A stretch of DNA of 64,000 bases from an uncultured Bacillota bacterium (GTDB lineage: Bacteria; Bacillota_I; Bacilli_A; RF39; UBA660): positions 1-64,000 of the forward strand of contig CANSAJ010000005.1 of the NCBI GenBank assembly GCA_947644695.1, in the 5' to 3' direction. Position 1 is the first letter of the stretch. The number at the start of each line of letters is the position of its first letter. Shown here in pieces: positions 8,071-54,419 of the stretch. Under the pieces are notes generated by a model. That model searched no databases. It had not been told where the DNA came from and saw nothing but the letters and a program-made list of their open reading frames with translations. A program made the position numbers and the translations under genes.

Positions 8071-8353
8071 ACTTAACACCTCTCTTCCATACCTCTATAT
8101 TAAAACACGCGCATGTTCTAATCAAATTAAATCGGGTCAAAAATTCCGACATATTTTTTAACATTACAATCATACTAAAAATTAACTATAATTAGTAAAC
8201 ATATGCATTAAATATCTAATTTTTTGTTTTAAATGGAATTAACAATGTAAAAATAAGATCTTTTTTCTTTTTTAAACAAAAAAACACGAAAAAAAGACAA
8301 AAAATAATAAAAAAGCTAAATAAAAAATTATAATGGTCTCGGAAGTGGTAAAA

Positions 8354-8962
8354 ATGAAAGATCTTTTAATAAATTCCGCTATGAACAATATTGAAAAATA
8401 TTGTAATTATGATAAAGTAAAACTCAAAGAAATTAGGTATGGATTATCCAGTTTATACCTTACAGTAACTAAAACTATCGTAATATTTGGTATATCATAT
8501 ATATTGGGATATATAAAACCGCTTCTACTATTAATGGCCCTCTATAGTATACTAAGACTTACTGGGTTTGGTGCACATGCTAAAAAAAGCTGGCACTGTT
8601 GGATATCATCATTATTGGTATTCTTAATATTACCCTACTTATGTACAATTCTAATTATAGACTATAGAGTTAAAGTTACATTAGGTATTATTTGTGTAAT
8701 TTTATTAGGATTTTTCGCACCTGCAGATACGGAAAAAAGACCATTAATAAACAAAAAAAGGAGAATAGCTTATAAGATAATCAGTGTATTAATGGGATTA
8801 TTATATATAGTATTATTCACCTTTATAAAAGATAACACATTAAACAATTGCATTTTATTCGGACTAATAATAGAAACTTGTGTTATTTTACCAATAACTT
8901 ATAAAGTATTTGGTTTAAAATATAATAACTATAAAACTTATAATTTAAATAAAAAAGAATGA
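8354..8962 (+). CDS. agrB: AgrB-type autoinducer peptide-processing protease
   Basis: A 202-aa polytopic membrane protein with about six hydrophobic segments. The AgrB signature is visible: a conserved His in GFGAHAKKSW and the nucleophile Cys seven residues later (SWHCW), the pair that cleaves AgrD and forms the thiolactone. The length fits the family (about 190-205). The reading frame opens at ATG 8333, but GGAAGTGG at 8341-8348 positions initiation at ATG 8354. It is followed after 14 nt by a 39-aa AgrD-like peptide gene, with the kinase and regulator genes convergent downstream, forming a full agr locus. Confidence 0.92.
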   Translation: MKDLLINSAMNNIEKYCNYDKVKLKEIRYGLSSLYLTVTKTIVIFGISYILGYIKPLLLLMALYSILRLTGFGAHAKKSWHCWISSLLVFLILPYLCTILIIDYRVKVTLGIICVILLGFFAPADTEKRPLINKKRRIAYKIISVLMGLLYIVLFTFIKDNTLNNCILFGLIIETCVILPITYKVFGLKYNNYKTYNLNKKE

Positions 8963-8976
8963 AAGGAGATTAAAAA

Positions 8977-9096
8977 ATGAAATTATTTGCTACATTAACA
9001 GGATTTTTAGGAGAACTAGTTGCTAAAACTACATCAGGAGCTTGCTGGTTTAGCTATTTCGACGAAGAAGAAATGCCTGAAAGTCTTTTAAAATAA
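8977..9096 (+). CDS. agrD: AgrD-type cyclic (thio)lactone autoinducer precursor
   Basis: A 39-aa precursor. It has an N-terminal amphipathic leader (MKLFATLTGFLGELVAKTTS), a central SGACWFSYF segment with the single Cys at residue 23, and an acidic C-terminal recognition tail (DEEEMPESLLK) that closely parallels the DEVEVPKEL tail of S. aureus AgrD. By that alignment AgrB would cleave before the DE pair, giving a ring C-W-F-S-Y-F, or C-W-F-S-Y if the ring has the usual five residues. AAAGGAGAT lies 6 nt upstream of the ATG. The peptide is too short for routine gene finding. Confidence 0.92.
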   Translation: MKLFATLTGFLGELVAKTTSGACWFSYFDEEEMPESLLK

Positions 9097-9126
9097 AAAT
9101 TAAATTTATTATTACTACCTTTAAAT

Positions 9127-9147
9127 ACCCTAGTCATTGGCTAGGGT
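9127..9147. terminator. Bidirectional terminator between agrBD and agrAC
   Basis: ACCCTAG / CTAGGGT stem with a 7-nt loop, followed rightward by TTCTTTATTTTT. The agrC stop codon lies within the hairpin, so it serves both convergent operons. Confidence 0.8.
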
Positions 9148-10441
9148 TCTTTATTTTTAAAACAGTTATAAATCTATTATTTTCAATATGTTGATTAAAA
9201 TCTAACAAATCTGTATCTTCAAGTAATTTACTAACAATATACAAACCATATCCACGATTATCACCTTTACTTGAAACACCTTTTAAATGAATATTATTCA
9301 GGTTTATAGAATTTTCAAAACTATTTTCTATATAAATTACTAATCCACCGTCATAATAAATATCTATCAATAATAACCTATCTTTTGCAATCGATGCTGC
9401 TTCGATAGCATTATCTATGACTATTCCTAATATTTTACATACTTTAAAATACAATTTTTGATTTAATTTATCAAAACTTTCTTCAATATTTGGAGCACTT
9501 AACAAAGTTAAATTAATATCATTTTCATGAATGCTAGCAATTTTATAATAAATAATACCTTTAATTCCAGATGGCAATTTATGTAAATTAGAAAATAATT
9601 GATATTTATTACTTCCTTGATAGGTATGCATAATTTCATCTAATGTCTCTTCATATTCAACTGAAGACTTATCTTTAAAACTTTTCAATATTACTAAATT
9701 ATTTAAAATTTCATGTCTGTTTATTCTCTCATTATCTAATAGTCTTTCATAATCACTCATTAAATTTAATAAAACTTTCTGTTCTTCTTCACTACTTTTA
9801 TTCTTAAAATATTGAACGATCATCACCACACATAAAAATAAGAAAAAAGAAATTAATAACATAGAAAATAAAAAGACATCTACACTTAAAACAAAAGCAT
9901 TTAAATGAGTAATCATTAAAAACACTAAGAATGCAAATAAAGAGCCTATCAAAAATACATAACTCCATTTTTTATTCAAATAACCTATCATTCTATTTAT
10001 AAAGACCCTAAACTTTTTAAATAAAAAGATAAATATTAAAATTAATGAAACTAATATAGTATTTAACCCTCTAACATAAGTTATACTTTCTAATATCAAA
10101 GAAGCATCTACTACATTAAATAGAAAAATAACAGCTAATAATGCATCACATAGTGATAATATTACATAAATAATAAAAATTTTAAAAAGTAATATATTAA
10201 TATTTTCTCTAAAGAAGAAATAAAATAAGAACAAAACCACAAGAAAAGAAACCATAAAATTAAAAGGAGTATCTAAAGAATAATTAGCTGTATAGGCAGC
10301 TAAAGACATAAAGAACACAACAAAAATATGAGAAAGATTTATATTTAATTTCTTATTAGTTGTAAGAGAATATACTATTACAAATGCACATAGATTAAAC
10401 ACTATTGCTAAATAAGATAAAATTGCATTAAATAACACCAC
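9134..10441 (-). CDS. agrC: AgrC-type sensor histidine kinase
   Basis: A 435-aa receptor kinase of the HPK10 (GHKL) type. Six or so membrane helices fill residues 1-212. The phospho-acceptor is His243 (INRHEILNNL), followed by the N box (DNAIEAAS, 343-350) and the G box (KGDNRGYGLYIV, 392-403). The family senses secreted cyclic peptides. The start is GTG 10441, overlapping the agrA stop by 14 nt, implying translational coupling. The gene is convergent with agrBD. The cognate signal is almost certainly the peptide of the adjacent agrD (inference from locus structure). Confidence 0.92.
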   Translation of the reverse strand: MVLFNAILSYLAIVFNLCAFVIVYSLTTNKKLNINLSHIFVVFFMSLAAYTANYSLDTPFNFMVSFLVVLFLFYFFFRENINILLFKIFIIYVILSLCDALLAVIFLFNVVDASLILESITYVRGLNTILVSLILIFIFLFKKFRVFINRMIGYLNKKWSYVFLIGSLFAFLVFLMITHLNAFVLSVDVFLFSMLLISFFLFLCVVMIVQYFKNKSSEEEQKVLLNLMSDYERLLDNERINRHEILNNLVILKSFKDKSSVEYEETLDEIMHTYQGSNKYQLFSNLHKLPSGIKGIIYYKIASIHENDINLTLLSAPNIEESFDKLNQKLYFKVCKILGIVIDNAIEAASIAKDRLLLIDIYYDGGLVIYIENSFENSINLNNIHLKGVSSKGDNRGYGLYIVSKLLEDTDLLDFNQHIENNRFITVLKIKNPSQ

Positions 10442-11144
10442 TTTCGCTCAACTCCTTCTTGTGTGTCTTCGATAGAAAGTGTGCCTCTTTTCCATTATCA
10501 AAAATTATTTTACCTTCACTCCACACATATGCATCTACTCTTTTAGTATTAACTATACAAGCTTTATGAGTAAAGACAAAATCATCATTCAACATTTCTT
10601 TAACTTTAATTAAATTTAAAGATACTTTATATTCATTTTTATCAGTCACTATTACGCTTTTTCTTTCAACTGTATCTTTATAAATATAAAGTATTTTATC
10701 AAAATCTATACTATAATCTACTTTACCTATTTTATATTTAAAATTTTCTCTAACATTTAATTGCTTTAAACAAATATCGAATAACTCATGCAAATTCTTT
10801 TCAGCTTCAAACTGTTTATTAACAAAATCTAAAATTTGTAATCTTTGTTTAAACGTATCATATGCCATACCACCATTAACAGTAAAAATTATTATAGGAC
10901 TTATCCAGTCCTTCTTTCTAATTCTTCTAGCTACTTCTATAGCTGTTGTGTTAGGAAGTTCAAAATCTAATATATAAATATAATTAGAATCATGATTCTC
11001 TACTAACTCTATAAAAGTATCAGTTTCCCTTTCAAAAAATAAAATATCAAACTCATACTTATTTTTCATCATATAATTGAAGATAATATCCTTTGCTTTC
11101 TTTCTATGATGTGGATTATCCTCTAAAACAATAAAATTAATCAC
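10428..11144 (-). CDS. agrA: AgrA-type LytTR response regulator
   Basis: A 238-aa regulator with a receiver domain (residues 1-125; acidic Glu8/Asp9, phospho-acceptor Asp60 in YILDFELP, Lys near 114) and a C-terminal LytTR DNA-binding domain (about 140-235, ...FVFTHKACIVNTKRV...). It is transcribed before agrC in one unit, agrA-agrC, the reverse of the staphylococcal agrC-agrA order. Targets are not visible with certainty: I found no convincing pair of AgrA-type direct repeats upstream of agrB. Confidence 0.92.
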   Translation of the reverse strand: MINFIVLEDNPHHRKKAKDIIFNYMMKNKYEFDILFFERETDTFIELVENHDSNYIYILDFELPNTTAIEVARRIRKKDWISPIIIFTVNGGMAYDTFKQRLQILDFVNKQFEAEKNLHELFDICLKQLNVRENFKYKIGKVDYSIDFDKILYIYKDTVERKSVIVTDKNEYKVSLNLIKVKEMLNDDFVFTHKACIVNTKRVDAYVWSEGKIIFDNGKEAHFLSKTHKKELSESGVI

Positions 11145-11221: not shown

Positions 11222-11470
11222 TTAGAAATTTTTAAATTTTTTTCTTGTAGCTTCTCCACCATGAATGTGCCTTACTTTAACATGATCATTCATAATATTA
11301 TGAACAAGTAAATACCTTTCATAATCTAAAAAATAAAGTCTTTCATTAATATCTTTATGAACACTACTTTTACTACAATTAAAAACATTAGCAACTTCCC
11401 TAATAGTTTTATTAGTTTCTATAATATAATCTGAAATTTTAAATACTCTCTCTTTTATAGCATTATTTAT
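11222..11470 (-). CDS. spoIIID: Sporulation regulator SpoIIID, apparently with an ATA start
   Basis: Residues read N-N-A-I-K-E-R-V-F-K-I, then HTH TIREVANVFNCSKSSVHKDI (22-41), then VRHIHGGEATRKKFKNF, matching Bacillus SpoIIID almost end to end (82 aa against about 93). No ATG, GTG or TTG exists in frame between an upstream TGA (11479-11477) and the HTH. The codon aligned with the SpoIIID methionine is ATA at 11470-11468, with GGGGG 10 nt upstream. SpoIIID is the mother-cell DNA-binding regulator acting with sigma-E. It follows spoIID and spoIIQ, the normal order. Identity is sure; initiation at AUA is inferred. Confidence 0.88.
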   Translation of the reverse strand: MNNAIKERVFKISDYIIETNKTIREVANVFNCSKSSVHKDINERLYFLDYERYLLVHNIMNDHVKVRHIHGGEATRKKFKNF

Positions 11471-11520
11471 ATTAAATCAACCCCCAATAAATATATGCTT
11501 AAAAATTTAAAACATGAAAA

Positions 11521-11543
11521 AACTAACCAATTAATAGTTAGTT
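11521..11543 (-). terminator. Terminator of spoIIQ
   Basis: AACTAAC / GTTAGTT stem with a 9-nt loop followed leftward by TTTTTTC. It overlaps the spoIIQ stop, so spoIIID probably needs its own promoter. Confidence 0.7.
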
Positions 11544-12209
11544 TCCTAAATCCTTTAAATTTAATTTGTAAAAGTTTTCTGGATCCATTAAAGAACCTTT
11601 ATAATAAACTTCAAAATGTAGAGAAGTTGAATAATTAGAATTAATTGAAGATGTACCACTTGTACCTATAACTTGTCCTTGTGTTACAGTATCTCCAACT
11701 TTTAAATTAACTTTATCTATACCTTGATAAACAGTTATTAATTCTTTATCATGTTCCACTTTTACAACATTTCCTAAAATTTCATCAGTATCTACACTTA
11801 ACACTTTACCATTTAGTACACTTACTACATCAAATACTGTCTCACTAATATAATCGACTCCTGAATTTTGCATATAAGTATTTTCATAGTAAATTATAGC
11901 ATTTTCTTGATTTTTAGCCTCTGCTTCAAAATCATAGAAATATCTACCTATTGTAACTTTATCAGACTTATATGGTCTTATTATTTCATTTGGATTAGTA
12001 GGTGTAGTTGTATTATCATTATTATCACTTCCTTGAACTGGAACCGAGTCTTCATCTATTAATCCATTTACACTATAAGTAAAATCTTTCTTTTCAGTTA
12101 AATATTTATTTATGCTAGTAATTGTAAGCACAATACATGCTATAACAGAAATTACGGAAATTAAATACACCCCTGGCACAAACAATTTCTTAACATTTAA
12201 ATTTTTCAT
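11538..12209 (-). CDS. spoIIQ: Stage II sporulation protein Q (degenerate M23 domain)
   Basis: A 223-aa forespore membrane protein with one N-terminal transmembrane helix (residues 10-32), a polar Asn/Thr/Pro-rich linker, and a LytM/M23 domain (about 105-215). The metallopeptidase motifs are broken: GVDYISETVFDV replaces the HxxxD motif, and SLHFEV replaces HxHFE. This is the state of Bacillus SpoIIQ, which works as a structural partner of mother-cell SpoIIIAH across the septum instead of as an enzyme. It lies directly downstream of spoIID, the conserved order. Confidence 0.9.
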   Translation of the reverse strand: MKNLNVKKLFVPGVYLISVISVIACIVLTITSINKYLTEKKDFTYSVNGLIDEDSVPVQGSDNNDNTTTPTNPNEIIRPYKSDKVTIGRYFYDFEAEAKNQENAIIYYENTYMQNSGVDYISETVFDVVSVLNGKVLSVDTDEILGNVVKVEHDKELITVYQGIDKVNLKVGDTVTQGQVIGTSGTSSINSNYSTSLHFEVYYKGSLMDPENFYKLNLKDLGN

Positions 12210-12257: not shown

Positions 12258-13184
12258 CTATAATGTCGAAATATCTACTCCTTGATAATAATGCTTTAAT
12301 ATTTCTTTATAAGAATAACCAAGTTTAGCCATCTCATTAGCGCCATACTGACTTAAACCTACTCCATGTCCATACCCTCTAGTAACAAATGTAATTAAAT
12401 TATCAGAAATCTTAAAATCAAAATCTGTACTACGCAATCCTAACTTTTTCCTAAACTCTGTCCCCTTAAATATAGCCTCATTTACTTTAATAAAGTCTAC
12501 TCTACCTGAAGAACTTCTAGAAACTATTTCTATATTTATTTCTTTATTATCAGGTAAACCTAACTTATTTAAAAACTCACTAACTTCAAATTCTGTCTTT
12601 TTCTCATAAGAAGAAACATTTTTGTCCCATGAAGATGATACACTAACTAAATAAGGTCTACTATCACCAAACACATTCTCTAAATTTTCTGTATACCCAT
12701 TTGATATACTAAAATAAAAAGACTCTATAATTTGATTATTATACGTTATATATTCTCCATTAGTCTCTTCAACTACACCATTTATAATATTAAAATATTT
12801 ATTATAACCATCTCCCCATTTAGTTTTCATCGCCTCTTCATTAATAAAACACTGATCAGTATTAGTAGCAACATAAGTTGGACTCATATTTTGCTTATAT
12901 AAATAAAATGTTCTAATCGCCACAGCTCCTGCCTTTAAAGCCTCTACATTAAAAGAAGCAGGCATTTCACAAGATAAAACACCTACTACATACTCATCAA
13001 TTGTCATATTTAAATCCTGACCATTATAAGACACTGCCACTGACTCTAAATTCCACATATCTTTTTTAACTTCTTCTTCTACTTGACTATCCTCATTTTT
13101 ATCAGATATTTCTTTAGTAGAATAATTCAAAGTAGCAATGTATACAACTAATAAAAATGGAATTAAAACAAAATATTTTTTCAT
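12258..13184 (-). CDS. spoIID: Stage II sporulation protein D (lytic transglycosylase)
   Basis: A 308-aa protein with an N-terminal membrane anchor (residues 2-20) and the SpoIID domain. Landmarks are VLSCEMPASFNVEALKAGAV (the catalytic Glu is in CEMP), AIRTFYLY, and the C-terminal GYGHGVGLSQYGANEMAKLG followed by the EILKHYY signature. SpoIID degrades peptidoglycan glycan strands during engulfment, working with SpoIIM and SpoIIP. It lies 48 nt upstream of spoIIQ. Confidence 0.95.
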   Translation of the reverse strand: MKKYFVLIPFLLVVYIATLNYSTKEISDKNEDSQVEEEVKKDMWNLESVAVSYNGQDLNMTIDEYVVGVLSCEMPASFNVEALKAGAVAIRTFYLYKQNMSPTYVATNTDQCFINEEAMKTKWGDGYNKYFNIINGVVEETNGEYITYNNQIIESFYFSISNGYTENLENVFGDSRPYLVSVSSSWDKNVSSYEKKTEFEVSEFLNKLGLPDNKEINIEIVSRSSSGRVDFIKVNEAIFKGTEFRKKLGLRSTDFDFKISDNLITFVTRGYGHGVGLSQYGANEMAKLGYSYKEILKHYYQGVDISTL

Positions 13185-52667: not shown

Positions 52668-54419
52668 ATAAAAAGAAAAACACAAAAAATAAATCTATTA
52701 AAAAACATAAAACGTTTATGGAAATATATTAAAACAAGTAGATTTAGTTTAATTGGTTACCTACTCGTAAGTATTACTGAAGGAATAATAGGTGCGATAC
52801 TACCTTTAATCTCAGCTAAAATAATTTTAAATCTTACAAATGGTTTAATGAATCAATTAGTACTTTCTGCACTTACTGTCTTTATAATAGATATGGTAGC
52901 TTATACTTTAGGATATCTTAAAGGATACTTTTATTACAAAATATACTTAAAAACTTTAGTTGACTTACAATATGCAATTGCTAGAGAAACTTTAAAAATA
53001 GAAATAAGTGAGATAGATAAATCTACAACAGGACTATTTATTGACAGATTAAATAATGATACTAAAGAAATATCAGGAGTATTCATGGAATACTCTTACT
53101 GGATGTCATATGTTATATCTAACTTAGGTGTACTAGTCGCAATCTTTATTTTAAATAAATATCTATTTATATATGCTGTAATAGTTTCTCTTATAATTTT
53201 TGCAATAAATAAAAAGAGACTAAGAAGACAATATGAAATAGAAAAAGACTTAAAAGTTTTACAAGAAAAAAAGACAAGTCTTACTAGCGAAATAATAAGA
53301 GGAATAAGAGATATAAAAGTTTTGAATGCTTCTAATAATGTATTAGAAAAAACTATGGCAAAAATAAAAGACGCAGCTAATGAAGAAAGTAAAAATTTAA
53401 ATGTTCACAGATCATATTTTACGTTAGAAAATTATTTTAGAGGAATAAGTGATTTCGCTCTAATATTATTCGGAATATTTTTATATAATAATAGCCTAAT
53501 AACTATACCTACATTTGTAATAATATACAATTATCAATCAAAAGTTAAAAATTTACTTATTGGCGTAGTAAACTTACTTGAATATAATAAAAAGTTTGCA
53601 CTAGCCGCTAATAGAATATTTGAAGTAATAGATAATCATAAATTTAAAAAAGAAACATTTGGTAATACTGAAGTAAATAAACTAGAAGGAAATATTAAAT
53701 TTAAAAATATTGTATTTGGATATGATAAAAATAAAAAGGTATTAAATAAATTAAATTTTGAAATAAAACCAAATGAAACAGTAGCATTCGTAGGTAAAAG
53801 TGGAGTTGGTAAATCTACTATATTTAGTTTAATAACTAAACTATATCACGCAGATTCAGGAAATATATATTTAGATAAACACAATATTAACGATTTAACT
53901 TGTGACTCTATTAGAAATAACATGTCTATAATAACTCAAAATCCATATATATTTAACTTTTCAATTAAAGAAAATATTCAACTAGCGAAAGAATCTGCAA
54001 CAATGAAAGAAATAAGAGAAGCTTGTAAAATGGCATGTATAGATGATTATATAATGTCTCTTCCAAAAAAATATAACACTATCTTAGGAGAAAATGGAGT
54101 AATTTTATCTGGAGGTCAAAAACAAAGAATAGCCATCGCAAGAGCCCTTTTAACTAAAACAGAAATAATACTATTTGATGAAGAAACAAGCGCACTTGAT
54201 AATGAAACTCAAAACGAAATACAACAAGCTATACGTAATATGAAAGGTGAATACACAATACTTATAATTGCTCATAGATTATCAACTGTAGTAGATAGTG
54301 ATAAAATATTTGTAGTTGATGAAGGAAAAGTCGTAGACAGTGGAACTCATAAAGAATTATTAAAAAAATGTGAATTTTATAGACACTTATACGAAAAAGA
54401 TTTAGAGACAAGTAAATAA
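52668..54419 (+). CDS. ABC exporter half-transporter, apparently with an ATA start
   Basis: 583 aa if begun at ATA 52668, the only start position consistent with the ribosome-binding site AGGTGA (52658-52663). The first in-frame ATG (52848) would remove the pre-helix KRLWKYIKTSRFSLIGYLL and the first membrane helix, which are typical of type I exporters. The ATPase domain is complete: Walker A GKSGVGKST, signature LSGGQKQRIAIARALL, Walker B IILFDEETSALD and H-loop AHRLS. Half-transporters of this form export lipids, peptides or drugs; the substrate is unknown. It lies 60 nt after the SGNH-like gene. Confidence 0.88.
   Translation: MKRKTQKINLLKNIKRLWKYIKTSRFSLIGYLLVSITEGIIGAILPLISAKIILNLTNGLMNQLVLSALTVFIIDMVAYTLGYLKGYFYYKIYLKTLVDLQYAIARETLKIEISEIDKSTTGLFIDRLNNDTKEISGVFMEYSYWMSYVISNLGVLVAIFILNKYLFIYAVIVSLIIFAINKKRLRRQYEIEKDLKVLQEKKTSLTSEIIRGIRDIKVLNASNNVLEKTMAKIKDAANEESKNLNVHRSYFTLENYFRGISDFALILFGIFLYNNSLITIPTFVIIYNYQSKVKNLLIGVVNLLEYNKKFALAANRIFEVIDNHKFKKETFGNTEVNKLEGNIKFKNIVFGYDKNKKVLNKLNFEIKPNETVAFVGKSGVGKSTIFSLITKLYHADSGNIYLDKHNINDLTCDSIRNNMSIITQNPYIFNFSIKENIQLAKESATMKEIREACKMACIDDYIMSLPKKYNTILGENGVILSGGQKQRIAIARALLTKTEIILFDEETSALDNETQNEIQQAIRNMKGEYTILIIAHRLSTVVDSDKIFVVDEGKVVDSGTHKELLKKCEFYRHLYEKDLETSK

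Follow-up and report, generated by a model that had tools for sequence, protein, structure and literature searches.

The window, as the whole 64,000-nucleotide stretch of DNA analysed here is called, carries on its minus strand the gene order spoIID, spoIIQ-like, spoIIID, LytTR response regulator and GHKL kinase, followed by AgrB on the plus strand (Table 1). Minus-strand translation of positions 11479–11222 gives stop-FNINNAIKERVFKISDYIIETNKTIREVANVFNCSKSSVHKDINERL...KKFKNF-stop, an 82-residue SpoIIID-family protein in a frame without stop or frameshift. The protein matches the SpoIIID family PF12116 (5.6e-25, 87.7 bits; Pfam gathering cut-off, 27), its gene occupies the position expected of spoIIID, after spoIID and spoIIQ, and it is the only spoIIID copy in the window's own genome. 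At 86.6 bits the protein misses the equivalog cut-off of NCBIfam TIGR02844 (111.5) and is thus assigned to PF12116, at the place of spoIIID, rather than to the NCBIfam equivalog. In a 145-row alignment of the family read by eye, 19 of 21 invariant or nearly invariant columns are retained, with Glu12 replaced by Ile and Thr36 by Ser in the other two. Judged from its sequence, the product is predicted to be the DNA-binding mother-cell regulator SpoIIID.

Table 1. Features of the spoIIID locus in the window, in order of position
Feature	Coordinates	Strand	Remarks
GHKL-domain histidine kinase gene	9134..10441	minus	next after the LytTR regulator
LytTR response regulator gene	10428..11144	minus	directly downstream of spoIIID; neighbour marking the ATA-start lineage
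spoIIID reading frame	11222..11470	minus	ATA to TAA, 82 codons plus stop
ATA, putative start codon	11468..11470	minus	aligned with the family methionine
TGA	11477..11479	minus	in frame, closes the frame upstream
GGGGG, Shine-Dalgarno (SD) core	11481..11485	minus	10 nt upstream of the ATA; predicted pairing energy with the 16S tail, -10.9 kcal/mol
Putative sigma-E -10 element, GCATATATTT	11489..11498	minus	fits KCATANANTN; by eye
Putative sigma-E -35 element, TCATGTTT	11510..11517	minus	one mismatch versus TYATATTT; by eye
spoIIQ-like M23 peptidase gene	11538..12209	minus	directly upstream of spoIIID
spoIID	12258..13184	minus	

No in-frame ATG, GTG or TTG occurs from the upstream TGA until an ATG approximately 59 codons past the ATA, and a start at that next in-frame ATG would delete the entire helix-turn-helix. 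The nearest ATG (11463–11461) lies in a different frame, which runs ATG CTA TAA. In a first alignment, the ATA coincided with the ATG, GTG or TTG start at every one of 18 same-family loci, and its spacing of 10 from the SD core is usable, as canonical loci span 3–14 with a mode of 7. The putative promoter elements, read against the sigma-E consensus as quoted in PMC3416734, include a -10 element that sits very near the SD. An earlier, sequence-only reading of this DNA had described a spoIIID lacking a canonical start, which the translation, the Pfam match and the family alignment confirm, and had placed the family start at this ATA with GGGGG 10 nt upstream, both of which are borne out. Relatives start at the same position and not in the shifted frame that this reading had allowed for, and the gene, as it had expected of gene callers, is absent from the program-made list of open reading frames.

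The start was surveyed across 145 spoIIID start sites of the same family, the window included, among the matches listed, with a few genomes contributing two loci each; four out-of-family loci (L020–L023), three duplicates (L072, L077 and L080) and places in G142, G210 (the second), G093, G158 and G287 were left out. A canonical ATG, GTG or TTG start was present at 134 of the 145 loci, of which 129 were scored by script at a usable spacing (86 ATG, 26 TTG, 17 GTG) and five were added by eye. The script flagged 16 loci, and five of these (L060, L069, L081, L147 and L160) were dismissed by eye, each having an ATG beside a mis-scored SD. The remaining 11 loci, from six genera, lacked a canonical start at a usable distance from the SD, and each of them carries an isoleucine codon 7–10 nt after the SD core: ATA at eight (spacing: window, 10; G063, 8; G318 [L158], 9; G229, 8; G101, 8; G174, 9; G277, 9; G201, 8), ATT at two (G141, 7; G295, 8) and ATC at one (G068, 9). 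As a yardstick, an AUH codon at spacing 7–10 was found in 37 of 258 other-frame cases of canonical loci.

At four of the loci (the window, L135, L181 and L189) there is no in-frame canonical codon from the upstream stop to the conserved region. Six others possess an in-frame GTG (five loci) or TTG (one) within or touching the SD (L123, L168, L193, L180, L059 and L074), and L158 has an ATG in frame at spacing 15. Within genus g58, the AUH codon corresponds to the isoleucine that is the family's conserved fifth residue, with AUH there in 81 of 129 canonical loci, so that its presence in this genus is weak evidence. When the g58 gene after spoIIID (L189 1–200, minus) is read by eye in the frame that corresponds to its L142 homologue, it too seems to have no canonical start. 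A stronger SD compensating for the AUA was considered and rejected; no strengthening was found at the 11 AUH loci, where duplex energies (-9.1 to -12.0) overlap those of the canonical loci (median, -9.7). As a control, the neighbouring mreB had canonical starts at all 32 loci with an mreB motif (43 loci tried), a difference that is not significant alone (Fisher p = 0.22).

The non-canonical starts are concentrated beside a particular neighbour. A LytTR regulator motif lies downstream of spoIIID at exactly seven of the 145 loci, the window included, and all seven have ATA; only four non-canonical starts occur among the 138 loci lacking this neighbour (Fisher p = 1.4e-9, with relatedness ignored). 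The six ATA loci that share the window's gene order come from separate assemblies and three other genera (g53, g91 and g164), and in two g95 genomes the same regulator (50–52% identity) follows spoIIQ with spoIIID missing. Where the start is canonical, the usual gene after spoIIID is mreB, the motif of which was found at 104 of 214 loci. In the window, an agr-like set (AgrB, GHKL kinase and LytTR regulator; 8333–11144) occupies the place that mreB holds in other genera, and this set might connect quorum sensing with sporulation.

In a SpoIIQ tree the 11 rows linked to the response regulator (RR) form one clade against four outgroups (support, 100/100), suggesting that the ATA is ancestral to at least four genera. 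The simplest history compatible with these sequences would be a single change to ATA before g1 (the window's genus), g53, g91 and g164 split, followed by losses in g1 and g95; G141, with mreB as its neighbour, and g58 would then represent additional cases. A SpoIIID tree requires approximately seven label changes, only two of them forced by well-supported branches, and its 79 columns are too few to fix the number of origins; in the RR tree, the outgroup G089 did not come out apart from the other rows. A private, recent mutation from ATG to ATA was dropped as an explanation, since other genera with this gene order also have ATA. Overall, the ATA looks to be inherited and to recur among the spoIIID genes of this family, and this recurrence and conservation in relatives lend support to the proposal in the sequence-only reading of a genuine AUA start.

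Near-cognate starts are also present elsewhere in these genomes. All 15 readable infC rows begin with ATA (n = 11) or ATC (n = 4) behind a near-perfect SD (row L095 was misplaced and left out of the count); each of the six g1 genomes read, including the window's own (L105), has ATA, and nine other family members have ATA or ATC. Within the window, an ABC transporter frame (52668–54419, plus strand) has an ATA at a spacing of 7 nt from an SD-like AGGTGA; at this point the nearly identical DNA of the sister genome G007 reads ATG. The next in-frame ATG lies 60 codons in, and a start there would cut into the transmembrane domain. From this comparison, the frame is apparently a second and recent candidate AUA start.

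Copies of spoIIID with an ATA start in g91 and g164 are under purifying selection. The g91 ATA-ATA pair has a dN/dS of 0.09 (bootstrap, 0.02–0.21; dS, 1.06) and the g164 pair 0.18 (bootstrap, 0.08–0.39; dS, 0.50), with values of 0.17–0.35 for comparisons with L158 and within g58; in both pairs the start is kept between species along with the selected protein, and synteny is shared. The window's spoIIID has no close homologue; its flanking genes differ from those of the sister G007 by a dS of 0.81. In simulated runs, a neutral frame as long as the window's breaks after a median of 0.014–0.042 changes per site, and 95% of dead frames of this length are broken by about 0.06–0.18, so that a frame still open at dS 0.81 indicates that selection held the gene for most of the branch. 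The SpoIIID branch leading to the window is long (1.12, compared to a median of 0.23). A pseudogene, as judged by sequence, was rejected based on the absence of a stop or frameshift and on the selection acting in ATA-start relatives.

Among the congeners, none of eight had a SpoIIID match. The spoIIQ locus was readable in five of them (67–78% identity) and spoIIID was missing from all five, with spoIIQ running directly into the regulator in four and the downstream side rearranged in G008. The window copy is nested beside G007, which lost spoIIID (FastTree). SpoIVA and a sigma-K-like factor (about 293–298 bits) were each found in seven of the eight congeners, G003 (55% complete) being the exception for both, indicating that sporulation genes persist where spoIIID is gone. 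Across the family, a SpoIIID match was found in 165 of 291 genomes and not found in 126. Of ten family genomes from other genera without spoIIID, nine keep SpoIVA, and loss of spoIIID thus does not track loss of sporulation genes.

Taken together, spoIIID is probably translated from the inherited AUA at 11470–11468, with weak initiation that would be further held down by IF3. The ribosome would bind the GGGGG site upstream of the AUA, with which the initiator tRNA would pair imperfectly; this imperfect pairing would make initiation weak, and IF3 should depress it further, keeping the amount of SpoIIID low. The AUA would not have been acquired in the window species but inherited from an ancestor common to four or more genera whose spoIIID precedes the LytTR regulator gene. 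We infer from these comparisons that AUA is the codon actually used, with a low yield and gating by IF3, and sensitivity of spoIIID to IF3 would follow by analogy with infC, S. aureus ccpN and Streptomyces sigR. The sequence-only reading had proposed low, IF3-sensitive expression, which would likewise fit the published AUA starts of S. aureus (PMC13009471) and the GTC start of sigR (PMC5472188). A broader proposal, which is conceivable but somewhat less likely to be right than wrong, is that, in this family of bacteria with small genomes and sporulation genes, SpoIIID came under an AUH start on three or more separate occasions (ATA in the clade with the LytTR neighbour; ATT in g131; ATA, ATT or ATC in g58) as an IF3-tied brake on late sporulation, and that this brake preceded the repeated loss of the gene in the LytTR-linked clade. 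The ATA may be adaptive as a brake, or it may be a weak start that is tolerated on a gene under loss.

The missing gene in all eight congeners, including the five readable spoIIQ loci, the placement of the window copy next to a genome that lost it and its long branch would also fit a gene in decay, in which the start is useless or nearly so in the window species, spoIIID is being lost and the frame remains open as the loss is recent. The same observations make the usefulness of the window copy doubtful and favour a weakening constraint in the window species, where spoIIID may be on its way out. However, the ATA is common to g53, g91 and g164 and the gene is under selection in the latter two, so that the ATA is not itself the lesion; further, the window frame has no stop or frameshift, keeps 19 of the 21 conserved columns and has outlasted the changes per site within which nearly all simulated dead frames were broken. 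Decay is an unlikely explanation.

Two readings that dispense with an AUA start carry far less weight. An error in sequencing or assembly, or an uncommon strain variant, with ATG as the true codon, might be suspected in a draft assembly of 56 contigs in which a second ATA start lies opposite an ATG in the sister genome, but ATA recurs at the six other loci of the same gene order, in separate assemblies from three other genera, making error highly improbable. Use of another start, whether internal or, on a near-leaderless mRNA, a GTG or TTG within the SD, would draw on the six loci with a GTG or TTG inside or touching the SD and on the promoter-like -10 very near the SD. No GTG or TTG of this kind is present in the window, L135, L181 or L189, and the window's next in-frame ATG would remove the whole helix-turn-helix, leaving a different start as a very remote prospect beside initiation at the inherited AUA.

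AUA starts are thought to be almost restricted to infC and a handful of genes, and no paper on an AUA-start spoIIID was found among those listed in searches of an open-licence library. Here, one regulator has AUH starts at 11 of 145 loci, with ATA kept across genera, which suggests that such genes are overlooked or given wrong starts by gene callers and that near-cognate starts can stay stable over long times. The family offers a natural series (ATG, ATA, ATT, ATC and gene lost) for relating the start codon to the dose of a developmental regulator.

The product belongs to the same Pfam family as SpoIIID of Bacillus and Clostridia and shares the spoIID-spoIIQ-spoIIID order, which PMC3533761 gives for C. 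difficile, with spoIIID footnote-marked in its table of core sporulation genes; it differs in its start codon and in the many genomes here without the gene, of which those checked mostly keep SpoIVA and sigma-K-like genes. With infC, whose start is ATT in E. coli, ATC in Streptomyces (both PMC5472188) and AUA in S. aureus (PMC13009471), spoIIID shares a near-cognate AUH start in a bacterial gene, ATA or ATC also being the infC starts in this family. In contrast, the infC product acts on initiation at its own gene, which carries a near-perfect GGAGGTG, while spoIIID encodes a developmental regulator behind an ordinary SD. A closer likeness in product is ccpN of S. aureus and B. subtilis, a small helix-turn-helix regulator with a conserved AUA for which PMC13009471 gives reporter levels of ~10% of AUG, and up to 30% in rich medium. 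It is of another family and process, and its SD is extended whereas that of spoIIID is unremarkable; extension, an S. aureus trait not required for the class, was not found at the spoIIID AUH loci. Streptomyces sigR, as described in PMC5472188, starts with GTC and is repressed by IF3, and swapping in canonical starts blocked sporulation. Like spoIIID as proposed here, sigR encodes a regulator whose level is restrained by a non-canonical start that IF3 represses; it differs in its GTC codon and in encoding an actinobacterial sigma factor, and the IF3 control demonstrated for sigR would extend to spoIIID by analogy.
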